Part shown: positions 28,042 through 42,600 of the stretch, piece by piece
Numbering within the stretch: the first letter of the stretch is position 1
Layout of the letters: each line of letters starts with the position of its first letter
Assembly (NCBI GenBank): GCA_017527825.1
Contig: JAFXPO010000047.1
Location: 1-64,000, forward strand
Length of the DNA: 64,000 nucleotides
Direction: 5' to 3'
Origin: Oscillospiraceae bacterium
GTDB lineage: Bacteria; Bacillota; Clostridia; Oscillospirales; Oscillospiraceae
The notes under the pieces: model-generated
What the model was told of the DNA's origin: nothing
Database searches by the model: none
Seen by the model: only the letters and a program-made list of their open reading frames with translations
Position numbers and translations under genes: made by a program

Positions 28042-31000
28042 TTACTTGACGAAATCGCGATACAGGAAGGTCACGATCTCCGCGCGGGTGCAGGTATCAT
28101 CCGGCTTGAAGGTCGTTGTGCTGCCCTTGCCGTTGGTGATGCCCTGAGCAACCGCCCAACCCACAGAACCGGCGTAGTACGCGTTGGCGCTCACGTCGGA
28201 GAAGCTGCTCGCGTTGCCCGCCGCTGCCTTCTCGAAACGAGCGATGAAGGTCACGATCTCCGCACGGGAGCAGGTGTCGTCGGGCTTGAAGGTCGTCGTG
28301 CTGCCCTTGCCGTTGGTGATGCCGTTGGCTACCGCCCAGGCAACCGCCTTTGCGTAGTAGCTGTTGGCGGCAACATCCGTGAACTGGCTGCTCGCCGTTA
28401 CCGCAGGCTCGCCAGCCGCGCGATACAGGAAGGTCACAGCCTCCGCACGAGTGCAGGTGTCATTGGGTTTGAAGGTCGTCGTGCTGCCCTTGCCGTTGGT
28501 GATGCCCTGAGCAACCGCCCAATCAACCGCCTTCTCATAGAAGCTGCCTGCCACAACATCCGTGAACATTGCGAACTTCTCAAAGACCGGCGTAACGACA
28601 ACGTCGCCCTCAGGCATCTGGAAGCTGTAAGTGCCGTCCGCGTTCGCGATGACCGCGACCGCATTGCCGCTGCTGTCCTTGACCGTGACGGAGGAGAGCT
28701 TGTAGCCTTGCTCCGCGGTGGGCGTGATGATAACCGTCTCGCCCGCCTTGGCGCTGGTGGCGGAATACTTGAGGCTGCCGCCGCTGACACCGCTTGCGGT
28801 CGTCACCTTCCCGGTCGCGGCAGCAACACTGCCGCCGTCAGGCGAAGGATTCACGGGATCACTGCCGGCGACGAGTTTGACCTCGACCGTCTTTTCCATC
28901 GAATCCGTCTTCACGGAACCGTTGTAGGTCTTGTAATCGTCAGCCTTGACCGTGAAGGAGTAGTCGCGATCCGTGTCGAGGCTTGTGAACAGTTTGCCGT
29001 TTGCGTCCGTTGTGCCGGTGATGCCGCCCGTTACCTGTGCGTTCGCGATCGGCTCACCGGTTTCATTGTCGGTAACGGTGAGGTTCACGTCCGCCTTATC
29101 GAAGACCGCGTAGAGCGTCAGCGTGCCGTCAGCCGCGATGTTCTGAGACGCCGCCATGGGTTTGAGCTTGTCCATGGACAGCTTGCCGCTGTAGTCCGCA
29201 GCAATGGCGTCCTCGGTCTCGCTCCAGCCGAGGAAGGTCGCGCCGACCTTCTGGGCGGCGGGGAACTGCTCGCCGATTTTACTGCCGTTGTAGGTGTCCT
29301 GTCCGAACTCCGCGCCGTTGCTGACAAACTTGACGTCAACCGACGTGGTGCTGGAGGTCAGGGCGAAGGTGGAGAAGTGCGTGGGCGTGAAGCCGACTTC
29401 CAAACCGCCGTCCTTCGGACCGTACTTCGTTACCTTCAGCTCCTCGCTTGCGTCCTTGTTGTTCTTATCCTTGAACGTATGCACCACAAACAGACCGTCG
29501 GGATTGATGGCAGCGGGGATCACCATGCGGACCTCTGTGGGCTTATCATACTTGCCGTCGGAAAGGTCGAGCGGCTTTGCCTCGCTTGTTCTGGAGGTGA
29601 GTACGGCATCGCTCTGCTTCGCCTCAACCTTGACGGAGTACATCGGCTGGATCTCGACCGTCAGGGTCTGGGGGCCGCTTCCGGTGGGGACATAGTCCTC
29701 AACCTTAACGTCGAAGGAAATCTCAACGGTGGACTCCAGCGTCACACCCGCGGCTGCAAGCTGTTTTTCGATGGTGTCGGTTGACCCTTCGTCCACAAAA
29801 CCAGCGATAACACTGTCTTTCTTCACGTCGTCGACAAACGTACCGATCTCATCCGCAGCCGTAGCCGCAGCAGTGCTCGCGGCGGACGCCGCAGCGTCTG
29901 TGGAGGTCACGCTGCTCGCCGCAGCGCCGGCTTCCTCCTTCAGCGCGTCCTCCTGATCCTGCGTCAGGGTCAGGTCGCCAAAGTTCATGCTATCGGTATC
30001 GACCGAGGGGTCGCCCATGACGATCGCCGCCTCAATGACGAGTTCTTCCACGTCAGTCGCCACAGAGACCTGATACTCCTCCTCATCGAGTGCAACCGTG
30101 ATGTCAGGGACGACAAACCCGTCATTCTTGGATACTGTGAAGGTATTCTGCTCGCTTGTGCCGTCTTCTTTCGCCTGCTGATAGGTTACAACCGCTTCCT
30201 TATCCGCAGGAATCACGCCCGTGACCAGAATGCCGTTATCGGTGATCTCCGCCTTGAGGTTCTCAGCCGGGTTGCTATCGATCGTAACCGAATCAATCGC
30301 GGTAATCAGCTGCGTGACAGCAGACACTTGAACCGTTGCCGACTCCTCGTTGTAGTTGTCCGTCGCAGCGACATTGATCGTGATCGTTGCCGAGCCATTC
30401 TTCATGGCGGTGACGCTGCCCTTGCCGCCGTTCGCCGCCAGATTCACCGAGATGGCGTCAGTGTTCGCACCGGAAACAGCATAGCTGACCGCGTTGGCAA
30501 AGCTGCCGTCCTTGTCGCTGGCAGTGATGCCCAGGGACTTGACGAGCGCTTTGGGCGTCAGCTTGACGCTTTCCTCCGCGCTGAGTTCGCGCGCCGCCTT
30601 TGCGATCGTCCAAGCCTTCGTCACTTCACCCGCAAGCGTGTACTTGTCCGCGTCAGCGCCGGTCAGGCCGGTGATCGTGGCGGTGTAGCTGCCCGCGTTG
30701 GTTTCCTCGTTGCCGACAATGTTCAGCGCAACGCGATCGCCCTCGATGAACTCCACATCAACCGTCGGGCCCTGCTTCTTGCCGGTATACGTCAGCGCGG
30801 TATTCTTCCAGCCGGACACGGTAACGGTCTTCGGGGTGACCGTCAGCGTAAAGCTGTCAGAACCCTGCTCATAGGTGGTCTCGCCAACAACTGTCCGCGC
30901 CGCTGTAGCGGTGACTGTCGTTGTACCGATGCCCTTGATCACCAGAGCGCCGCTCTCCACGGCGGCAACCGCAGGGTTGCTGCTGGTAAAGCGAATGTCT

Positions 31001-34000
31001 TCGGTGACCTCTTCCTCGCCGCGCGTCGCCTTGGCGGCGAGCTGATAGCTGTTCCCGGAAGCGCCGTAGACAACAACAGAGGTCTCAGGCTTTTCCGTAA
31101 ACTCAACCGGTTGCAGCTCGTTCGCGGTGACCGTCACCGCGATGGTGACCGGCGTCGCGGCGGGATAGTTCGCGGTGGCTTCGGAGCTCACCGTGATGGT
31201 CGCGGTACCCGCGCTGACCGCCGTGATCAGACCGGTCTCGTTCACCGTCGCTACGCTCTCGTTACTGCTGGTGTAGGTCACGGCGGCGTCGCCGCTGGCG
31301 CTGTCCGTCACAGTGATCTGCTTGGTGTTTGTGTCGTCCTTCTTGAGCGTCACCGAAGTCACGTCCGCGGTGAAGGTACGCACACCGGCGGTAATGTCAA
31401 AGGTGCTCTCGCTCGTTCCGCTGTAGTTGCCCGCACCGGTAGCAATGACGGTGTAGGTACCGACGTTCTTGGTGTCAGAAGTCTCCTTGCCGTCCGCCTG
31501 ATACTTCAGCGTGTAGTCCGTATCCTTGACCAGCGTCTTGCTGCCATCCTTGACCGTGACGGTCGGCCGCTTCGCGGTGCCGTCATACACGAAGGTGTCC
31601 GGCGTCAGGGACAGTGCCTGCTCCGGCAGAGCCTTCGGGGCGATGGTGTAGGTTGCCGTCGCAACGCCGGAATAGTTGCCGGTGAACTTGACGGCGACCT
31701 TGTAGGTGCCCGCCGCGACAGGGCTTACCGTTTCCGCCGCGCCATAAGCGGCAGCGTCCGTGATATTTGCGGTGCCCGCGACGATCTTGGTCTCATAATC
31801 CGTACCCGCGCGGTAGGTGGTCACAGCGTCATCGCCCTCGCTGACCGTAACGGTCGGCGTCTGCGCCGCGCCGGTGTAGGTGAATGTATCCTCGCTCAGC
31901 GCGATCTCAGCGCCTGTCACCTCAGCCGGAGTGATCTGGAACGTCGGCTTGAAGGAGTCGCCCGTCCCGTTGGTGTAATTGCCGCGGAAGGTTACGGTTG
32001 CCGTCGCCGTGCCGACAGCTATGTTATTGCTGTAAACCACGACGTAGTCAACGTTCTTTACCAGAGCTTCAACCTTTCCAACAATGCCGTCCGCGCTTGT
32101 GAGCGTGAAAACCGGTTCAATCTTTTTGCCGGTGTAAGGCATGCGGGAAATGCTGGCTTCAATCGAGTTGACCGTCTTCGGCGCAACCTTAAAGGTCGCG
32201 GTCGCGGGAATTGCCTTGCGGTCAGCATCCACAGGGGAAGCGATGTTGCCGGTCAGTTCCACGCTCACGGTGTAGGCGCCCGCGTTCTTGGGCATATCCT
32301 TACCGTTAACCTTCTCGGTCTTCGCGTTGCTGCCCGCGGCGGTGGACGCCGTGAATGTGGCAGTGAATTCATTCGTCTGGACGCCGTTGACCTTGACCGT
32401 GACATCAGGCGCCAAGGCGTCGCCGCTATAGGTCAACTCGCCGACGGTGATGGACACCGCGTTGTTGTTCGCCAGTCGCAGCGGGTTAACGGTCAACGTG
32501 GCGGTCTTGGTGCCCGTGTAGTTGCCTTTACCGGTAACGGTCACGGTGTAAGTACCCGCCTTGAGCGGAAGGTCGTTGGACAATTCGCCGGTCTGCCCCT
32601 GCGCAACGCTGTAGGCAAGCGTGTAGTCCGTATCCTTGACCAGCGTCGTGTTGCCGTCCCTGACCGCAATCGCGATCTTGTCCAGCGCCTTGCCGGTATA
32701 GGTCGTGGCAGGATCGGTCACGGCAATGTCATTCGCCGTCAGCGCCTTGGGCGCGATGGTAAAGTCCACGGAAGCCGCAGTCGGGAGCTGATAGTTCCCT
32801 ACCACCGCCGTTGCGCCGGCGGCAGCCTTCAACGTCTTGGCAATCACCGTATAGTTGCCCGCGTTGGTGGGCTTCGTCGCGCTCTCGGCGGGATCCGTCG
32901 CCGCTTTGTCAATGTAGCTGTAGGTATCGATCTCAAGACCGGTCTCTTTGCCCACATAACCGCCGACCGTGGCAGTCTTGCTCTGCGCCTGACCGTTGAA
33001 GGTCAGTTCAGCGGTGCTCCACGTCAGGTCAACCGTCTTCTTGGCGATCGTAACGGGAACGTTATATTCAATGGTCTCGCCCTTGTATTCGCCATCGCCC
33101 GCGGTGAACACGACTGTGACCGCGTTGTTCGTATCGACGGACTGAATCGCTTCGGACGCCTTGACAGAGATCGTACCGGAAACACTCTTGCCCTCAGCGT
33201 CCTCTGCCGTCGCCGCCGCCTCGGAGATGGAGACAAGATCGCTGTTCTTCGCGCCGTACACCTTGCCCGGCACAGCGGTGACGTTCTGGAAGGTCAGGTT
33301 GATCTGCCCGTCCATCTTCGGAACGATGGACTTAGCAGTCAGGTTGAGGGTCAGCGTGATGTCCTCATAGTTCTTGCTCTGGAGTACCACGGTGATGGTC
33401 GCCGTGTCGTCCACAGCGCCCTTGTTCGTGCTGTAAGTGACCGTCTGCTGCGTGCCGCTTACCTTGGAAAGCAGGTTCTTGGCATTCGTGCCGATCGCGG
33501 CGCTCTTGACCGACCAGTCCTTAAAGCCATTTGCTTCCGTGAGCCAGGTGAACACATCGGCGCTGACCGTGTAGGTGCGGTTCGTGCTCGCAACCGTGGG
33601 AACAACGAGGTCAGCCGTTTTCGTTCCGGTACCCGCATAGGTCGCCTTGGTCACGGTGAAGGACGTTGTGATCGCATCCGGCGCGACATGCGTGTCGGTT
33701 TCCGCCGCAGTCGCCTTGGCATAGTAGGTACCGGCGTCCAGCGCATCGGTGCTCTGAAGCTCGGTCTTGCACGCCTCATCCGAGTAATACTTCACAGCCG
33801 GGGTGCCGTTGGTCACCGTCGCCGCCGGGAGGTCAGCGGTCGCGCCGTACTGATAGGTATAGCTCTGCTTCGTCCAGTTCAGGGTGTTCGCCGCTTTCAC
33901 GATCTCGAACTCGGCGCTCGCGCCGGTCGCAATCGTGTAGTTGGTGTTCGCCACAGCCGCGGTGATGGTGTAAGTGCCGACGGCGGTGGGTTTCGTAGTG

Positions 34001-36420
34001 CTGCTATTGTAAGGGGTGTCGGCTCTGCCCTCGTATTGGTAGGTCGGCGTGACCGTGTCACCAGACACGGCGCCGCTCACCGTGGCAGTCAGCGCGGAAA
34101 GATCATCCCCGTAGGGGTACGATTTGGACTCCGGCCAGGTAAGGGTCAGCGCCTTTGCGCCGATGGTGAAGTCCGCCGTCGCGGTCGCGGCATTGTAGTT
34201 GTCCGTCGCCGCGATGGTTGCCTGAACGGTGTACTGACCCGCGTTCGTGGGAACGGTGGAGGCGAACTCGCCCTGTGCATCCTTAACCTTGTAACCATAG
34301 GTCACGGTGCCGTTGCTCGTGTTATTGGAAACGCTCGGCGTCTTTGCCGTCTCGCCGTACGTCCAGCCTTCGAGGGAAACGGTGGGCGTAAAACTCGCTT
34401 TGTCGATCATAACCTCCGCGTCTTTGACCATCGTCGCCGGAACGGGGATGTTCTGATAGTTCGTGTTGCCCGTTGCCGAGAAAACGAACGCGGCAGTCTG
34501 GGAACCGGCGCCGGGTTTGGTCTCAGCGTCCTTGAGGGTAATCTTACCGGCAATCTCCTGATCGCCGAGCTTGGCGGTATACGCCATGCCGTCCGAGGTG
34601 ATATCCGCAGCTTCGCCGCTGCCAACCTGAACGCTGGTGACGATGTCGTTCCACTTGTCACCATAGACCGGCTTTTCCTTCGTGGTCACAGTGATGGCGG
34701 TGTCAAACGACAGGGAGATCACCGACACGTCCACGCTCGCCGTCAGAGCGCTGTTCGTCTTCTTGACGGCAGACACCTTGATCTCGTCCGCCACAGCGTC
34801 CGTCGCAACGGTCAGGACACCGGCATCGGAAATCGTGATCTTGCCAGTGTTTGCCGCGTCCACTTCGGTCAGAGACCAGGTGAAATCAGCAGCCGTCGAG
34901 CTGAAATCATCATCAAACTGATCCTTCAGCGCCGCCGTGTAGGTCTTGGTGGTGTTCTCGGCGGGGTTGATTGTGACCGTCGTGTCGCCAGTCAGGGTCA
35001 TGGTCGCGGCAACAGAGGCGCTGCGAGCCACGATAATGCCGCCCTTCCCCACGGTCTTTCCATTGCTGTCGACAAGCCTCACGACCAAGCCCTGACCATT
35101 TTCAGCATTGGCATGGCTCTTCGCGCCAATGGTAAAGGTTTTCGCCCCAGTATTTACCGTTATGGTCTCATTCGCGGTTGTCGTGACCACTTCGCTCAGG
35201 GTGCAATTCTGGAATTCATGACCAAACTGGTCGATACCGGTGGCGGTAATCACAATGTCTTTCTTGCCATCGACGGTGATCGTCTTGTTGGAACCGTCCA
35301 GCACGATCGTCTTGGTACTGTCGTTCGGGTCGGGTCTCTCCAGCTTGACCTCATACAGCTCCGGAGTCTCGTGGGTGACTCTGAACTTCGCCGACACACT
35401 GCTGTTTGCGGTGACCGTCGTCGCGTTAGACTTCGCCTTGGCGATCAGATAATAGTCCTTAGATTCAGCCTCCGGGTCAAAGTCAGCCAGCGGGTCAATG
35501 TTGAAAACGCCGGTCTTCGTGTCGACCCGCCAGCCGGTCATATCATGTTCTTCGTACCAGCCGGTCAGTTGTCCTTTGCCGTCCAGCGATCTGTCGATCG
35601 CGGGGATATTGCCCTGCTCGTCCTGATAGACGCCCCACTCGATTTCCTCATTGGCGAGCAGATTGGTGCCGCCCGCGGAGGTCAGCGCCGTGATGTTCAG
35701 CGTGGGCTGCTTCTTGCTAAGCTTGCCGCCGACCCTAATGGTGTTTTTATCGGACAGCGTCAGCTTGCCGCCCGCCAGCGTGGGCAGAACGCCGTTGACA
35801 TCGCCAAAGATCTCCGCGGAGATGTCGGGCGTGTATTGAACCGTATTTTTAGCTTCGTCTCTGTAACCGATCTTTGCTTTGGTTTCATCATCCTGTGAGA
35901 GCCAGAAGAGCTTTGCGCCGGTCGCCGTCTCCGCGCCCGCTTTGACTTGGAACACGAAGTAGATCAGCGCTGTGGTTTTATAGCTTTTGACCGTCGAATT
36001 CTTATCATACGCGCCGGTCGTAATGATGCTTTTGCCGTCGTCCTGAAGATTGGATGTTTTTGAGCTCCATTCCTCGGTCAGCGTATCACGAACGCTGTAT
36101 CCATCGGAATAGTGAGAGTCCCTTTCCAAGTCGCTTGAATACGCCAGAATATCGCTGTCAAAGTTGACAGTCACCTGATATTCCGACACTTTCTCCGCGT
36201 CCATGCCGAGGGTCAGCAGGACGTACTCGTTCGGCACAAGCTCGTCGTTCGTGCCGATTGCGTCGCCCACATTTAATCCGGTCTCAGCCGAGCCGGTCAA
36301 TCTGTTCAGTGTCAGGGTAAACGCCGCGCTGTTGTCATCCGCGAATGCCGGGATGTACATGCTGCTCAGCAGCAATGCGAACGACAGCACCAGCGCAAAA
36401 ATTCGTTTTGCTTTTCTCAT
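28042..36420 (-). CDS. Giant SLH-anchored surface protein with cohesin-like, MBG/Ig-like domains
   Basis: A 2792-residue secreted protein. In order: signal peptide (residues 1-28, ending MYIPAFA), a cohesin-like module (about 30-200), then a long series of beta-rich repeats of the MBG and bacterial Ig-like types, recognisable by KAGTYTVTVTGKGNYTGTK-like and VTYTSSNESVATVNETGLIT-like motifs. Near residue 2400 comes a Listeria-Bacteroides-type repeat (FLGWSETEDA) and a carboxypeptidase-regulatory-like domain, and at the end three SLH domains (FTDVVAGSFYEKAVDWAVAQ, about 2605-2792) that bind cell-wall polymers. A role in adhesion or surface structure is likely. Start at 36420 with GAGGT upstream. 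The three SLH-coding segments share near-identical DNA. Confidence 0.88.
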   Translation of the reverse strand: MRKAKRIFALVLSFALLLSSMYIPAFADDNSAAFTLTLNRLTGSAETGLNVGDAIGTNDELVPNEYVLLTLGMDAEKVSEYQVTVNFDSDILAYSSDLERDSHYSDGYSVRDTLTEEWSSKTSNLQDDGKSIITTGAYDKNSTVKSYKTTALIYFVFQVKAGAETATGAKLFWLSQDDETKAKIGYRDEAKNTVQYTPDISAEIFGDVNGVLPTLAGGKLTLSDKNTIRVGGKLSKKQPTLNITALTSAGGTNLLANEEIEWGVYQDEQGNIPAIDRSLDGKGQLTGWYEEHDMTGWRVDTKTGVFNIDPLADFDPEAESKDYYLIAKAKSNATTVTANSSVSAKFRVTHETPELYEVKLERPDPNDSTKTIVLDGSNKTITVDGKKDIVITATGIDQFGHEFQNCTLSEVVTTTANETITVNTGAKTFTIGAKSHANAENGQGLVVRLVDSNGKTVGKGGIIVARSASVAATMTLTGDTTVTINPAENTTKTYTAALKDQFDDDFSSTAADFTWSLTEVDAANTGKITISDAGVLTVATDAVADEIKVSAVKKTNSALTASVDVSVISLSFDTAITVTTKEKPVYGDKWNDIVTSVQVGSGEAADITSDGMAYTAKLGDQEIAGKITLKDAETKPGAGSQTAAFVFSATGNTNYQNIPVPATMVKDAEVMIDKASFTPTVSLEGWTYGETAKTPSVSNNTSNGTVTYGYKVKDAQGEFASTVPTNAGQYTVQATIAATDNYNAATATADFTIGAKALTLTWPESKSYPYGDDLSALTATVSGAVSGDTVTPTYQYEGRADTPYNSSTTKPTAVGTYTITAAVANTNYTIATGASAEFEIVKAANTLNWTKQSYTYQYGATADLPAATVTNGTPAVKYYSDEACKTELQSTDALDAGTYYAKATAAETDTHVAPDAITTSFTVTKATYAGTGTKTADLVVPTVASTNRTYTVSADVFTWLTEANGFKDWSVKSAAIGTNAKNLLSKVSGTQQTVTYSTNKGAVDDTATITVVLQSKNYEDITLTLNLTAKSIVPKMDGQINLTFQNVTAVPGKVYGAKNSDLVSISEAAATAEDAEGKSVSGTISVKASEAIQSVDTNNAVTVVFTAGDGEYKGETIEYNVPVTIAKKTVDLTWSTAELTFNGQAQSKTATVGGYVGKETGLEIDTYSYIDKAATDPAESATKPTNAGNYTVIAKTLKAAAGATAVVGNYQLPTAASVDFTIAPKALTANDIAVTDPATTYTGKALDKIAIAVRDGNTTLVKDTDYTLAYSVAQGQTGELSNDLPLKAGTYTVTVTGKGNYTGTKTATLTVNPLRLANNNAVSITVGELTYSGDALAPDVTVKVNGVQTNEFTATFTASTAAGSNAKTEKVNGKDMPKNAGAYTVSVELTGNIASPVDADRKAIPATATFKVAPKTVNSIEASISRMPYTGKKIEPVFTLTSADGIVGKVEALVKNVDYVVVYSNNIAVGTATATVTFRGNYTNGTGDSFKPTFQITPAEVTGAEIALSEDTFTYTGAAQTPTVTVSEGDDAVTTYRAGTDYETKIVAGTANITDAAAYGAAETVSPVAAGTYKVAVKFTGNYSGVATATYTIAPKALPEQALSLTPDTFVYDGTAKRPTVTVKDGSKTLVKDTDYTLKYQADGKETSDTKNVGTYTVIATGAGNYSGTSESTFDITAGVRTFTADVTSVTLKKDDTNTKQITVTDSASGDAAVTYTSSNESVATVNETGLITAVSAGTATITVSSEATANYPAATPVTIAVTVTANELQPVEFTEKPETSVVVYGASGNSYQLAAKATRGEEEVTEDIRFTSSNPAVAAVESGALVIKGIGTTTVTATAARTVVGETTYEQGSDSFTLTVTPKTVTVSGWKNTALTYTGKKQGPTVDVEFIEGDRVALNIVGNEETNAGSYTATITGLTGADADKYTLAGEVTKAWTIAKAARELSAEESVKLTPKALVKSLGITASDKDGSFANAVSYAVSGANTDAISVNLAANGGKGSVTAMKNGSATITINVAATDNYNEESATVQVSAVTQLITAIDSVTIDSNPAENLKAEITDNGILVTGVIPADKEAVVTYQQAKEDGTSEQNTFTVSKNDGFVVPDITVALDEEEYQVSVATDVEELVIEAAIVMGDPSVDTDSMNFGDLTLTQDQEDALKEEAGAAASSVTSTDAAASAASTAAATAADEIGTFVDDVKKDSVIAGFVDEGSTDTIEKQLAAAGVTLESTVEISFDVKVEDYVPTGSGPQTLTVEIQPMYSVKVEAKQSDAVLTSRTSEAKPLDLSDGKYDKPTEVRMVIPAAINPDGLFVVHTFKDKNNKDASEELKVTKYGPKDGGLEVGFTPTHFSTFALTSSTTSVDVKFVSNGAEFGQDTYNGSKIGEQFPAAQKVGATFLGWSETEDAIAADYSGKLSMDKLKPMAASQNIAADGTLTLYAVFDKADVNLTVTDNETGEPIANAQVTGGITGTTDANGKLFTSLDTDRDYSFTVKADDYKTYNGSVKTDSMEKTVEVKLVAGSDPVNPSPDGGSVAAATGKVTTASGVSGGSLKYSATSAKAGETVIITPTAEQGYKLSSVTVKDSSGNAVAVIANADGTYSFQMPEGDVVVTPVFEKFAMFTDVVAGSFYEKAVDWAVAQGITNGKGSTTTFKPNDTCTRAEAVTFLYRAAGEPAVTASSQFTDVAANSYYAKAVAWAVANGITNGKGSTTTFKPDDTCSRAEIVTFIARFEKAAAGNASSFSDVSANAYYAGSVGWAVAQGITNGKGSTTTFKPDDTCTRAEIVTFLYRDFVK
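35961..36230 (-). repeat. 270-bp segment duplicated at 37339-37608
   Basis: This segment of the cohesin-like module aligns without gaps to 37339-37608 (offset 1378) with only a few scattered mismatches, including runs of more than 50 identical bases. It shows recent duplication or gene conversion between the two neighbouring genes. Confidence 0.85.
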
Positions 36421-36430
36421 TGTCGTTACC

Positions 36431-37798
36431 TCAATCAAAAGATGTAATCCGCTTTACCACATAGTCAAGGATACGGGAGGCGTCGCTCACGTCGACTCCT
36501 CCGTCCTTGGTCACGTCCGCCGCGAAAAAGTCGTTGCCCGTGAGGATTCTGCGCTTCACCACATGGTCCAGAATCGCGGAAGCGTCACTGACATCAATTT
36601 CTCCGTCATCGTTCACGTCACCCAGCGTATAGGTCGCAATGTCACGCACCAGCGCCGCGCTGATATCCGGCGCATACGGCATAATCTGACCGACTTCGTT
36701 GTGATAGCCGAGCTTCGCTCTGGTTTCGGTGTTCTCCGAGAGCCACACAACCATCACGCCCGTGGCGTCGTTTGCGTCAAGTCTGACCTGGAACACAAAT
36801 CGAATCAACGCTGTGGTTCCATAGGAATCAGGCGTCGAGTTGTAGCTATCCGCTCCGGCAGCGATGATGCTCTTTCCATCGCTTTGAAGCATGTACGCTT
36901 TGGAACCCCAGTCGCTCGTCAGTGTGTCAGCAGTAGATGAGCCATTGTTATAACCGGAGCCGGCCCCCAAATCGCCTTGATAAGTCAAAACGTCGCTGTT
37001 GAAGTTGATCGTCACCTGATATTCCGACACCTTGGGCGCGTCGGTACCAAGCGTCAGCAGGACATAGTCGCCGGTCTTGAGCTTAGCGTCCGCGCCGATT
37101 TCTTTGCCCGCCGTGAATCCCTTGTCGGGTGAGCCGGTCAGCTGATTCAGCGTCAGGGTGAACCCTACGCCGGCAATGCCGCAGCGCGCCTCCGCGCTGA
37201 GATCGGGCGTATACTGCACCGTCTTGTTTGCGGCGTCGCGATAGCCGATCTTTGCCTTGGTTGCGTCGTCCTCAGAGAGCCAAAAGAGTTTGGCGTCATC
37301 CGTGTCCGCCGCGCTGGTTTTCACCCGAAAGACAAAGTAGATCAGCGCTGTGGTTTTAAAGCTTTTGACCGTCGAATTCGCATCATGCGCACCGCCCGTA
37401 ATGATGCTTTTGCCGTCGTCCTGAAGATTGGATGTTTTTGAACTCCATTCCTCGGTCAGCGTATCACGAACGCTGTATCCATTGGAATAGTGAGAGTCCC
37501 TTTCCAACTCGCTTGAATACGCCAGAATATCGCTGTCAAAGTTGACAGTCACCTGATATTCCGACACTTTGTCCGCGTCTGTGCCAAGGGTCAGCAGGAC
37601 GTACTCGTCCAGCGCAAGCTTATCGTTCGCGCCGATTGCGTCGCCCACCGCAAACCCGGTCGCAGCCGAGCCGGTCAGACGGTTCATGCTGAGGGTGAAC
37701 TTCGCTGTGGTTCCCACTGCCATCACCGGGATATAAAAGCAGCTCAACAGCAGCGCGGAGGTCAGGAAAACCGCGAAAATACGTTTCATTTTCCTCAT
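36431..37798 (-). CDS. Secreted protein with two cohesin-like modules and a type I dockerin
   Basis: A 455-residue protein: signal peptide (1-27), two cohesin-like modules (about 30-200 and 208-385), each with the pattern YVLLTLGTDA..VSEYQVT(V/I)NF(D/N)SD, and a C-terminal dockerin (390-455). The dockerin has two calcium-binding repeats, GDVNDDGEIDVSDASAILD and ADVTKDGGVDVSDASRILD. A protein with both cohesin-like and dockerin parts is built like an adaptor scaffoldin. Module 1 is nearly identical in DNA to that of the giant SLH protein. It starts 18 bases after the previous gene and ends 10 bases before the next. Confidence 0.85.
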   Translation of the reverse strand: MRKMKRIFAVFLTSALLLSCFYIPVMAVGTTAKFTLSMNRLTGSAATGFAVGDAIGANDKLALDEYVLLTLGTDADKVSEYQVTVNFDSDILAYSSELERDSHYSNGYSVRDTLTEEWSSKTSNLQDDGKSIITGGAHDANSTVKSFKTTALIYFVFRVKTSAADTDDAKLFWLSEDDATKAKIGYRDAANKTVQYTPDLSAEARCGIAGVGFTLTLNQLTGSPDKGFTAGKEIGADAKLKTGDYVLLTLGTDAPKVSEYQVTINFNSDVLTYQGDLGAGSGYNNGSSTADTLTSDWGSKAYMLQSDGKSIIAAGADSYNSTPDSYGTTALIRFVFQVRLDANDATGVMVVWLSENTETRAKLGYHNEVGQIMPYAPDISAALVRDIATYTLGDVNDDGEIDVSDASAILDHVVKRRILTGNDFFAADVTKDGGVDVSDASRILDYVVKRITSFD

Positions 37799-37816
37799 GC
37801 CGTCACCCCATCTTGC

Positions 37817-38488
37817 TTAATCAAAGGTTCTGATGCGCTTCACAACGTAGTCAAGAATTCGTGACGCGTCACTGACGTCGATTTCGCCCTTTTTCTCAGC
37901 AACGTCCGCCGCGAGGAAGTCGTTACCCGTCAGCTTGATGCGTTTCACCACATGATCCAGAATCATCGCCGCGTCGCTGACGTCAATATTACCGCTTCTG
38001 TCCACGTCGCCCAGCGTGTACGCCGCATAGTACTCATAGGTGCCGATCAGCGTGCGAGGCATGCCGTCACCGGCGTTGCTGGCAAGATACACATAGTAGG
38101 TCGTATCCGCCGCGAGGGTCTTCTGGTATACCGTGAAGTCAACCGCAGTACCATCCGCCGTCTTCTGATCGATGTACTCAATCGTCTCGGCGGTGAGGTC
38201 CGTGCCGGACTTGATCTCGGTATTCGTCACCAGAATCAGGTAGTACGCGCCATTCTGCGCGCCGGAATAGGTCACGCCGAGCTTTTCCGCGCCGCCGTAA
38301 ACGCTCTTGTCCGCAACGGCCGTCGGGGTTGTGACCGCAGTGCCCTTCGCGTCGTAATAGGAGAAGGTGACATTGGCGTCCGTCGCCGTCGCGGCGGTGA
38401 GACCCGATTCATTCGCGGCAAACACGCTCACGCACAGCAGCATGGACAATACCGCACCCATCAGCATGGGTTTGAGAAACCGTTTCAT
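37817..38488 (-). CDS. Small secreted dockerin protein
   Basis: A 223-residue protein: signal peptide (residues 1-24, ending SVFAA), a beta-rich fibronectin-like module (about 30-150; VTYSGAQNGAYYLILVTN) and a C-terminal dockerin with two calcium loops (GDVDRSGNIDVSDAAMILD; ADVAEKKGEIDVSDASRILD). The second loop has an irregular EKKGE sequence. No catalytic domain is present. The start at 38488 has AAAGGAGG upstream; the frame open to 38668 lies in the upstream gene. The dockerin is very similar to that of the 455-residue neighbour, so both could bind the same cohesin. Confidence 0.82.
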   Translation of the reverse strand: MKRFLKPMLMGAVLSMLLCVSVFAANESGLTAATATDANVTFSYYDAKGTAVTTPTAVADKSVYGGAEKLGVTYSGAQNGAYYLILVTNTEIKSGTDLTAETIEYIDQKTADGTAVDFTVYQKTLAADTTYYVYLASNAGDGMPRTLIGTYEYYAAYTLGDVDRSGNIDVSDAAMILDHVVKRIKLTGNDFLAADVAEKKGEIDVSDASRILDYVVKRIRTFD

Positions 38489-38501
38489 TGTTTTCCCTCC
38501 T

Positions 38502-39587
38502 TTAATTTCGCTTTTCCAGATATCCAACCAAAATCTTGGCGAGCTGCGCACGGCTTGCGGCAACCGTCGGTCCCAGCGTCTTTGCGCCTGTACCGGAGAT
38601 GATGCCGTTGTAATACGCCCAGTACATCGCCGCTTTCGCCCACGCGGCAATCTGCGCGCTGTCGGCAAAACCGGCGTCGTAGTCGGCGGTGAACATCAGC
38701 TCCATCCCGCTGGGGCTGCCCGCGTATCCAAAGAGGATTTTCATTGCCTCCTGACGCGTCAGGCTGTCCTTCGGCGCGAAGCCGCTGCCCTTGCCGTTGA
38801 CGTAGCCGTTTTCATACGCCCACGCCACCGCGTCAGCGTAGTAATCGTCCGCCATCACGTCGGCGAACGGCGCAGGCTGCTTTGGCGCGGGCTTGCCAGC
38901 CATGCGCCAGAGCACCAGAACATAGTCCCCGCGGGAGATGTTGGCGTCCGGGTGGAAGCTGCCGCGCTCGTCGCCGCTGAACAAGCCGCGCTGCGCCGCC
39001 TTGACGATCCATTCCTCGCCCCAGTGTCCCACGGCGTCGGGGAACAGCGGCACGGCGCCCGTCTCGCCCTCCGGGGCGGACTGTGACTGCCCGCCGGACG
39101 GCGGCGTCTGCGCGGCGCTGTCCGCGGCTGTCTGAGCAAAGTTGACCGTATACGGGATCGCAATGTGCGCCGGAGTATTCAGTTTAACCTCCTCCAGCGC
39201 AAATCCGAAATCACGGATATCTTTTTTGGCGGTAAACTGGAACGTCGCGACCGTCCCGTTGTCCGTCATCGCATCGGAACTCGCCGCAGCAACGATCGCG
39301 CCGGTCGGCGTTTCTTCGTTGGTCGCGGAAACCGCGCCCCGGAACGCTTCGCTCAGGTGGGCGTCAGTGCAAACCATCGCGCTTTGATCGAACGCGAGCG
39401 TGAATTGCAACGCGCCAATCCCAGGGTTGTCACTGATGTCGACCGTAATCAGGAACGATTCGCCCGCCTTCGGGATCGTCGCCGGCGTTTTGACCGTGAG
39501 CACAGCGCCCGCCGCCATCGCCGTCGCCGGCAGGAGCGACAGGGTAATTGCCAATGCCGCCGCCCACGCAAGCAGTCTCCTCCTCAT
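38502..39587 (-). CDS. Cohesin-SLH anchoring protein (anchoring-scaffoldin-like)
   Basis: A 361-residue protein: signal peptide (1-26), one cohesin domain (about 27-150; VKTPATIPKAGESFLITVDISDN...IGALQFTLAFDQSAMV), a Ser/Gln/Pro-rich linker and three SLH domains (about 183-361; FPDAVGHWGEEWIVKAAQRG, FADVMADDYYADAVAWAYENG, DSAQIAAWAKAAMYWAYYNG). In cellulosome systems such proteins fix dockerin-bearing partners to the cell wall. Its likely partners are the two dockerin proteins encoded immediately downstream. GAGGAGG lies 7 bases before the ATG. Confidence 0.88.
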   Translation of the reverse strand: MRRRLLAWAAALAITLSLLPATAMAAGAVLTVKTPATIPKAGESFLITVDISDNPGIGALQFTLAFDQSAMVCTDAHLSEAFRGAVSATNEETPTGAIVAAASSDAMTDNGTVATFQFTAKKDIRDFGFALEEVKLNTPAHIAIPYTVNFAQTAADSAAQTPPSGGQSQSAPEGETGAVPLFPDAVGHWGEEWIVKAAQRGLFSGDERGSFHPDANISRGDYVLVLWRMAGKPAPKQPAPFADVMADDYYADAVAWAYENGYVNGKGSGFAPKDSLTRQEAMKILFGYAGSPSGMELMFTADYDAGFADSAQIAAWAKAAMYWAYYNGIISGTGAKTLGPTVAASRAQLAKILVGYLEKRN

Positions 39588-39636: not shown

Positions 39637-42600
39637 TTACCACAATGTTTGCGATTCGTCAACAGGAATCCAACTTTCCCGCAAAAATTGGAAAAACGTC
39701 ACTCTGGCCGCGCCGGAGGAGCGGGTAAAGCGGAATCCTGCCACTTCATACCCATTCGCGGGCGCAGGCGTCGCGCTGACCGTTTCAAGCAGTCTTCCCT
39801 GCCCGTCATAGGTCGCCGCCACGACAACGGTGTCGCTTTCACCGCAATAGAACCTCTTTTCAATCGCTTCTCCCGACCGGGCAGCGGCGATCACAGCGTC
39901 CTGCTCCCTGTCAGCAAATACCGTCCGTTCCAGCGCGGCGCTGCATCCGCCGTCCGAAACGCGGAGCTTCGTCCCTTCCCGCTCAGTAAGCCGGAAGGCT
40001 TCTCCGTCCTCCAAGAGCCAGCCGCTCATGCTTTCCCATTGCGCCGCGGTCTCATTGAAGAAATTGCAGGAAAGGTACAGCCGATAGTCGCCGCCGCTCT
40101 CCGAGACCGGCAGATCGATCCGATAAGCGATGCCGTCCTCGTTTTCATTCAGAGAGGTAGCCGGATACGTTTTTCCGCTCTCTGTCTCCGCAGAAAGATA
40201 ATTGATGTTGAAGTATTGCGCGGGGAAGCTTGCGGAGATAACACCGGTCAGGGTGGCGCCGATCAACTCCAGCGCAATGTCCGGCAAACCCGCTGAATCT
40301 CGGGCATCAAAAAGAATACCGTCTGGGTTCTCAAGGTAGACGTTGGTGTTGTATTGTCCGGCATACTGTGTTCCAGACAGGTACACCCTGTATCTCGCCG
40401 CGTTCTTCGGCAGAACCACCCGATACTCCCACGGACCGTTCTGTGAGTCGATGCGGATATGCCCCCAATAGCTCTCATCTTCGCCCGCCGTTGTGTTCTC
40501 GAAGAAAACAGAGTGCCTGAGCAGAATCTCGCCCGAAGAAGGCAGCGTGATCTCCGCGCCAGCCGGAACGACGACGCGTCCCGTGAGGGTCCATCCGGTC
40601 TCAACGCAAAGCCGGTATTCCCCACCGTCGCGGAACGTCGTCAGCTCCGCCTGATCTTCCGAATGAACCACGGCTCCCTCTTCTGTATTGTACCACACCC
40701 CGGCGGGTACGTTGGATTCATCGCTCGGAACAAAGCCGACGCAAATCCGCTCGCCATCGACCATCTCCGCCGACGGTGAGATCGCCGCGCTCCAGCGTCC
40801 GTCCGCCTCCCGCTTGAGTTCGGCGTCCGTCATGCGGAAGCGATCTACCGCAAAAATCCTTACCCAGCTTCTCGATGCGTCGACCTCGTCACCGGACATA
40901 GACGCCAGATTCAGATAGATTTTGACCTTCTGCTCCTCCGGCATCTCGAACGACGGCGCACCGTCCGCGACGGCGAACCATGTGGCGTCGCTCCTTTCAT
41001 TTACGACAGCAAAGCTCCCATCGCTCACTTTCAGCCAGCCGTCCAGGGAATTGCTCTCCCCGTCCGCCACATAATAACCATTGACTCGCAGACGATACCG
41101 CTCTCCCGCCGCCGAATAGGGGAAGCTAATGCTGTATTCTCCGGTCTCAAAGTCATACTCCGGATAGTACTCTTTCTTCCCGATCTCCGCATACAGGTTG
41201 AAACTGGTTTCCGTCGCGTTTTGAGGGAAGCTGACCACACCGGAAACCGTGGGACCGATCCGCTCAAGCGTGATGTCGGCGCCGTTCTCTGAACCGTTCA
41301 CAGTGAGATCGGCGCTCTGAGCAGAAAAACCAAACGCCAAATTCGTATCATAGTTATCGTTGTACCATGGCCGCGCAACGGTCTTAACCTGATACACAGT
41401 GCCGGAAACCTTCGGCACGGCGATTTGATAAACCCATCCGCCGCCATCCGTGGAAGCCTTCGCAATGCCGCTGTAAGTCTGCGTAACGCCCTGCTCCGTT
41501 TTCGCCGCGGCGCGAACTGGAATATCAGGATAGGATGTGCCATCGTAACGCAGATTCAGATATCCGCCTTCCGGCATGCGAACCGCGCCGGTGATGAGCC
41601 AGCCAGTCTCCACCGGAATGGTATGAACCGTGCCGTCGTCGATGCGCGTCTCCTGCTTACGGTCTGTGGCGTTCCACCCGATCTCCGGCTGCGTCGCCTC
41701 TTCTCCGCAGTAGAAATAATCCGCATCGATTACATTGGAGTCCAGTCCGGGGGAAACCATCAGGCAGTACGTCTCATCCGGCGAAATGTTCCCCTGATTG
41801 AAAACAGCGCTCCAGGTGCCATCGCTCTCCGCCGTCAGTCGCGCCTGCGCGGCTTCATAAAAAGAACCGTTGTCCAGCTTGCCGAGATGGAGCCACGGGT
41901 TCACCATGATTACCTCTTCGGAATCGGGAGACGTCAACCGCACCCGAACCTTGATCTTCTCGATCGTCGGCAGTTGGAAGTCAGGCACGGTGTCCGATGC
42001 GTGGAACGTCGTCGCTGCTTCGTAATCGCGTACCAGCTGAACCGCACCGTCCTTGAGCTGAAGGTATCCGGCGCTGTCGCAGCTTTCGCCGTCGCTGTCA
42101 GAATACCAATAGTGGAGGTGCAGGCGATATTCGTCCTCGCACACGGATTCCGGGAATTCGATCTTGTATTGGAAGCCCGTCTCGGAAAGGCTGATGGACG
42201 CGTTGTATCCGGGACCGTTCCCGCTGATCGCCCGGAGTCCGATCCCCCAGTCGCCGTCCGCCGCGTCTTCGGGGAATGTAACGCTTCCGGTCAGGGTCGC
42301 TCCGATCCGCTCCAGCGCGATGTCCGGCAGGCTTGCCGTCTCACTGGCGACAAACGGGATGGGCTCAAGGGTTTCGAGGTAGACATTGCTGTCGAATAGA
42401 TTGGCTCTCCACCGGCAGTCCACGAATATCTGATACGTCGCATCTTCCTTCGGCAGGACAACCTCATACAACAGCGGTTCGTTTTGCGAACCGACGTAGA
42501 GGCGACCGGAATACCTCTCCAGGTCATATTCGTCATATTCCTTCGTCCGGTACACGCTGATAACGTTATCCAGCCATCCCTTCGACCCGTCCGCCAGCGT

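Follow-up and report, generated by a model that had tools for sequence, protein, structure and literature searches.

A cohesin-bearing SLH protein (P4) and, directly downstream of it, a small dockerin protein with an Ig-like domain (P3) form a conserved module of Oscillospiraceae and their relatives, which is new here. We propose, and consider it probable, that this pair is a two-part surface-display module, in which P4 would be a dedicated anchor displaying P3 as its small Ig-like payload. Our reading is based on the gene order, kept in 23 of 23 loci of a genome collection and in loci L081 and L164, on the symmetry of the dockerin code, on the arrangements found in loci L195, L184 and L165, and on a dockerin code that P3 has in common with P2, another protein of the same operon. 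By title or abstract opening, no description of the P4-P3 gene pair was recognised among the literature matches listed, with subscription journals mostly outside the coverage, which is weak evidence of novelty.

The four genes and their products

In the window, which is the whole stretch of 64,000 nucleotides that was analysed, four adjacent and co-oriented genes run on the minus strand from 39587 to 28042 in the order P4-P3-P2-P1 (Table 1). The gaps between them are about 10-18 nt, which fits a single transcript; the co-oriented run may extend further upstream into P5 and P6, and P5 may be on the P4 transcript as well. A promoter scan, which was uninformative, gave no sigma-70-type site. The start of P3 is very likely the ATG at 38488, with ggaggg upstream as a putative ribosome site, and that of P1 is most likely the ATG at 36420; both correct earlier calls. 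P5 had no match in Pfam and NCBIfam searches, P6 none in Pfam, and P3 used as a query against plasmids found no match.

Table 1. Genes of the operon and the two genes upstream of it
Gene	Positions	Strand	Product	Basis
P4	38502..39587	(-)	361 aa: signal peptide, one cohesin, three SLH repeats	
P3	37817..38488	(-)	223 aa: signal peptide, Ig-like beta-sandwich, C-terminal dockerin	
P2	36431..37798	(-)	455 aa: signal peptide, two cohesin-like domains, dockerin	
P1	28042..36420	(-)	2792 aa: signal peptide, remote cohesin-like N-terminus, Big_2/MBG repeats, three C-terminal SLH	
P5	39637..46131	(-)	2164 aa secreted giant, 49 nt upstream of P4	ORF
P6	46185..53060	(-)	2291 aa secreted giant upstream of P5	ORF

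A C-terminal stretch of about 60 residues, with the pattern A-x-YD-x-x-G-R-L ... V-K-L-F-x-L-x-x-x-x-x-P, is common to many secreted giants. It is found in the window at 39637-39850, at the C-terminus of a giant on contig C42, and in L078, L079, L080, L081, L148, L156 and L143, and is possibly an undescribed domain.

The cohesin of P4 scores 27.3 bits in Pfam (cut-off 24.1) beside three SLH repeats (E 4e-29), and a profile of nine relatives matches cohesins of the PDB with a best E of 5e-7. P4 thereby has at least one cohesin together with SLH repeats, as an SLH-anchoring scaffoldin does, and the SLH repeats typical for S-layer-type wall attachment are present three each on P4 and P1. For P3 the Pfam evidence is below the Dockerin_1 cut-off of 22.9 bits (18.0 bits, or 21.6 in a genome-wide search). 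The AlphaFold model of P3, built on an alignment of 10 sequences, has a mean pLDDT of 88, and its residues 156-223 superpose on the solved dockerins 8x39, 4uyp and 2ccl with Z of 12.2-13.4 and rmsd of 1.1-1.3; judged by this model, P3 is a real dockerin protein despite its sub-cut-off score. Its N-terminal domain is an Ig/Fn3-like sandwich with middling structure matches (Z about 7) and could be assigned to no named family, and no dockerin-adjacent X-module appeared among the 50 matches listed for it.

P2 carries a Dockerin_1 domain well recognised by Pfam (31.3 bits, cut-off 22.9), and its best Cohesin score of 22.5 stays under the cut-off of 24.1. Pfam finds three SLH repeats (E 4e-28), Big_2 and MBG_2 in P1 and nothing at its N-terminus. 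A profile of 14 P1/P2-type N-terminal domains aligned with that of nine P4-type cohesins with a probability of 77% and E of 2e-5; the unrelated Ig-like domain of P3, taken as a control, gave 0.1% with either set in two comparisons. Against PDB sequences, all four chains matched by the P1/P2-type domain at E of 1 or below are cohesins (E 0.08-0.33). From these comparisons the N-terminal domains of P1 and P2 appear to be remote cohesins, which we term cohesin-like and for which we claim no binding.

The origin of P2 can be read in its DNA. Over its first 609 nt, which encode the signal peptide and domain 1, P2 aligns gap-free with the beginning of P1 at 81.8% identity; domain 2 has 67% identity to domain 1, and in DNA the dockerin is 74% identical to that of P3. 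By this evidence P2 is an in-operon chimera, apparently made from the P1 start and the P3 dockerin. Its AlphaFold model, with only 7 alignment rows and a pLDDT of 36.8, was not used for fold search. Compared with polyvalent adaptor scaffoldins, P2 has a dockerin over the cut-off and cohesin-like domains that are remote; compared with the multi-cohesin scaffoldins of cellulosomes, it has two cohesin-like domains with a best Pfam score below the cut-off.

The original prediction described four adjacent cohesin, dockerin and SLH genes free of any catalytic domain, and this agrees with what Pfam, our profiles and the P3 model find: Pfam detects no catalytic domain in P1-P4, the 361-residue protein is an SLH-anchored cohesin, and P3 is a dockerin protein by its modelled fold. 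The double cohesin-like adaptor does have a dockerin and the giant protein does have SLH repeats. Of the cohesins, that of P4 is over the Pfam cut-off, P2 falls under it, and the likeness of the P1 N-terminus is remote and seen by profile comparison. Its calcium-dependent assembly is plausible from the EF-hand loops: when two EF-hand repeats with ligands at positions 1, 3, 5, 9 and 12 are expected of a dockerin, both loops of P2 are near canonical and loop 1 of P3 is canonical, yet loop 2 of P3, in a repeat that starts VAEKKG, is altered and has lost ligands.

Conservation of the P4-P3 pair and the gene behind it

A genome collection was scanned by SLH peptide patterns of P4 relatives only, which gave 57 loci, and 29 of them (L173-L201) were examined with home-made profiles. 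A P4-type cohesin-SLH gene is present in 23 of the 29, and in 23 of these 23 a P3-type gene lies directly downstream. The P3-type gene has a dockerin match in 22 of the 23 loci; the match is missing in L180 and weak in L177 and L185 (E 2e-3). With L081 and L164, where a P4-type gene is likewise followed by a P3-type one, there are 25 loci besides the window; six of the collection loci are apparently the same contigs as loci from whole-genome searches. Within the genus the set occurs in 5 of 18 genomes (G000, G002, G004, G007 and G013). The hosts belong to Oscillospiraceae, Oscillibacter and Clostridia, mostly as assembled genomes, many of them from ruminant gut, and include one isolate, Oscillibacter sp. 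MSJ-31. Several families retain the gene order.

Three loci depart from the common pattern. In L195 an SLH gene without cohesin adjoins a P3-type gene without dockerin, a joint loss of both halves. L184 contains a normal pair and, next to it, a 417-aa protein that fuses SLH repeats directly to a P3-type Ig-like domain. In L165 the cohesin is missing from the SLH gene and present on the third gene (E 8e-6). These arrangements suggest that the module serves to bring the P3-type domain to an SLH anchor, whether or not the snap joint is present.

The gene after the P3-type one, a third gene encoding a secreted protein, was followed in 26 other loci, where it is complete in 16 and runs off the contig in 10. 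It usually encodes a giant SLH protein, with SLH repeats in 14 of the 16 complete cases (not in L175 and L177). Its N-terminus has a cohesin-like match in 17 of the 26; 11 of these sequences had gone into the profile, which leaves 6 independent matches. The remaining 9 of 26 give no domain match, which weighs against the display-module reading. No dockerin was found on any of the 16 complete third genes, and a P2-type gene was not seen in those 16 loci.

The third gene bears on the surface layer or adhesive fibre that the original prediction had envisaged. A structural lattice of this kind, in which the domains of P1 and P2 bind dockerins and P2 polymerises and links P1, P4 and P3, might be drawn from the two cohesin-like domains and the dockerin of P2, from P1 as a giant Ig-like SLH protein, and from the SLH repeats of 14 of the 16 complete third genes elsewhere. 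We regard it as unlikely, the N-terminal domains of P1 and P2 being only remote cohesins and the complete third genes elsewhere having a dockerin in 0 of 16 cases, with 10 more running off the contig. Because such third genes have no dockerin, the conserved core cannot polymerise; only P2 could branch or extend it, and P2 has no counterpart in the other loci with a complete third gene (0 of 16). A P4 with one cohesin and a P3 with one dockerin would on their own give a heterodimer and not a polymer. The proposal of a layer or fibre is possible but unsupported.

Dockerin code and the proposed display of P3

Dockerin repeats were compared in 26 P4-P3 pairs (the window, the 23 loci, L081 and L164), the repeats being located by a position matrix; 24 were scored, while L180 and L185 were dropped since a weak repeat fell under the threshold. 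We paid particular attention to positions 10 and 11, the latter of which we take to be a recognition position. At these positions the two repeats are 88% identical within a protein and 10% between proteins, compared with 68% and 35% for the whole repeat and 77% and 56% for the calcium ligands. In none of 20,000 shuffles was the observed within-protein identity reached for any position set, a figure that is no strict probability, as the sequences are related. An earlier run on nine proteins (G013 left out) gave the same pattern of symmetry. Asp stands at position 12 in both repeats of all 24 proteins; for position 1 the counts of the two repeats are 24 of 24 and 18 of 24. In the window, P2 and P3 have the same code, V-S in both repeats.

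Positions 10 and 17 are named as dockerin recognition positions in the part of PMC5590126 available to us, and the dual-mode binding of type I dockerins rests on symmetric repeats according to the accessible text of PMC12484212. We take the code, as far as the sequences tell, to be maintained, symmetric and lineage-specific, and to reflect selection on a lineage-specific partner surface, because the symmetry is kept in each lineage while the letters change. Repeat duplication or gene conversion could contribute partly to it. Covariation of the cohesin with the code at positions 10-11 was weak in partial Mantel tests (r 0.14, p 0.02 with SLH controlled; r 0.12, p 0.04 with SLH and the Ig-like domain controlled) and did not reach significance when two wider sets of columns were used. 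This weak covariation, together with the altered loop 2 of P3 and the degenerate dockerin of L180, weighs against the display-module reading.

SLH repeats hold secreted proteins on the cell wall, and in the mechanism that we propose P4 would be secreted and held there by its own, with its one cohesin exposed. P3, secreted separately, would plug its symmetric dockerin into the P4 cohesin and so display the Ig-like domain, for which we infer the role of payload. P2 would dock on the same cohesin, either competing for it or sharing it, and present two P1-type domains. P1, with an N-terminal domain distantly related to cohesins, would be a second giant, anchored independently by its SLH repeats. 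We may even suggest, as a tentative idea that we ourselves hold to be rather doubtful, that the joint is a self-privatising plug-and-socket, in which a symmetric code of each lineage would let a P3-type protein dock only on the anchors of kin in the crowded gut.

Enzymes, other dockerins and known systems

The source genome (G000; 2.60 Mb, 51 contigs, completeness 100) has five dockerins by Pfam (E of 0.001 or below), and a lineage profile of 13 rows finds the identical five at E of 10 or below. Dockerin-bearing glycosidases elsewhere in the genome, which the original prediction had named as the possible true partners, were looked for and did not appear: none of the five dockerins is on a recognised enzyme, dockerin-bearing glycoside hydrolases were not found, and we reject a cellulosome. 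What we see corresponds to a non-cellulosomal cohesin-dockerin system, with the modules present and no cellulosomal enzymes. The three dockerins outside the operon are on proteins of 9007, 952 and 1554 aa, on which Pfam recognises no catalytic domain; the single GH85 match of the 9007-aa protein is to a non-catalytic C-terminal domain.

The 9007-aa protein is secreted and encoded by a single open frame at 14811-41834 of contig C42 (L071-L072); it has repeats of the fn3, CARDB and PKD types and, close to its C-terminus, a dockerin. Two ORFs just downstream resemble recombinases by eye. The other two proteins, each with a cohesin and a dockerin, lie with a 388-aa SLH protein in a second cohesin/dockerin/SLH cluster (contig C48, 10572-19310; L069), with a dockerin code unlike the one in the window. 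This cluster adjoins a 1612-aa secreted SLH protein (C48 5720-10558, minus strand, L069) that has a ubiquitin domain directly after the signal peptide (Pfam E 6e-27), which by hand count is identical to eukaryotic ubiquitin at 57 of 72 residues. Ubiquitin-domain matches occur in 2 of 150 genomes of the family, and a secreted copy in G343 of the same family (L230:1411-3216) is apparently closer still to eukaryotic ubiquitin; as a precedent, the available part of PMC3352274 gives the ubiquitin of Bacteroides fragilis as 63% to human. The source genome also yields 110 matches to SLH repeats and thus has a rich surface proteome of SLH proteins.

Of the 18 genomes of the genus, Pfam finds dockerins in 6 and cohesins in 7. 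A Pfam scan of eight proteins from other genomes showed a dockerin in seven, five of these seven from the same genus. The dockerin enzymes of the genus relatives are a 2479-aa protein (NAGPA, metallophosphatase, CotH), an 846-aa fragment (peptidase M14) and a 248-aa protein (amidase domain), the first two adjoining cohesin-SLH genes of their own. Since genus relatives have such anchors beside dockerin enzymes, the absence of enzymes is a property of the operon and of the source genome and not of the genus. In another genus of the family (G032 C12, L167:2829-12703) an SLH protein of 1202 aa carries four cohesin-like domains and stands beside two dockerin proteins of 676 and 712 aa without other Pfam domains, a candidate for another enzyme-free system.

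Enzymes kept in this way by genomes of the same genus beside other cohesin-SLH genes, as well as the second calcium loop of P3 and the L180 dockerin, both degenerate, may be taken to indicate that the operon is what remains of a cellulosome-like system whose enzymes were lost, and that it has little function now. It is a very improbable reading in our opinion, as the symmetric codes have been kept while diverging between lineages (24 of 26 pairs scored), the gene order persists across several families, and P2 is a newer gene built from operon parts. Least probable of all we find a P4 cohesin that captures dockerins other than those of P3 and P2, be it from neighbouring cells or the three others of the genome on the 9007-aa secreted protein and the two second-cluster proteins, as the residues of these three at positions 10-11 differ from those of P3 and P2 and are asymmetric between the repeats, and cohesins and SLH genes of its own are present in the second cluster.

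The display module that we prefer has several known counterparts. Cohesins and dockerins outside cellulosomes have long been known (Peer et al. 2009, as cited in the parts of PMC4081043 and PMC9012536 available), and like those proteins the present ones occur without a cellulosome, in few copies and in mixed domain contexts; as far as these citing texts describe them, those are isolated modules, whereas here there is a fixed, widely conserved gene pair with symmetric codes. Acetivibrio-type SLH-anchoring scaffoldins (category 4 in PMC11557425) resemble P4 in being secreted with a cohesin and SLH repeats, yet here no dockerin glycoside hydrolase was found in the genome and the next-door partner is a small Ig-like protein. 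P2 recalls the polyvalent adaptor scaffoldins (category 7, PMC11557425) by its dockerin and more than one cohesin-like domain, and unlike them has remote cohesin-like domains, derived from the SLH giant P1, and no enzyme to receive. For ANME archaea the consulted part of PMC9012536 proposes that dockerin/cohesin pairs fasten proteins without a cellulolytic role to the outer layer of the cell; the S-layer domains described there are on dockerin proteins, while here they are on cohesin proteins and in a conserved operon. Enzyme-free cohesin-dockerin systems are known in general, and what is new is the conserved P4-P3 pair with its lineage codes.

The role of cohesin and dockerin in non-cellulolytic organisms is presented as an open question in the available portions of PMC4081043 and PMC9012536, according to which the modules were studied almost wholly as enzyme scaffolds. 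A compact two-gene pair, shared by many Oscillospiraceae of gut and rumen and by the isolate Oscillibacter sp. MSJ-31, offers a small testable case, and some two dozen natural pairs with different codes at positions 10-11 are a resource for orthogonal surface display. If the self-privatising joint is true, cohesin and dockerin would act in these bacteria as a species-specific display lock rather than as an enzyme scaffold.
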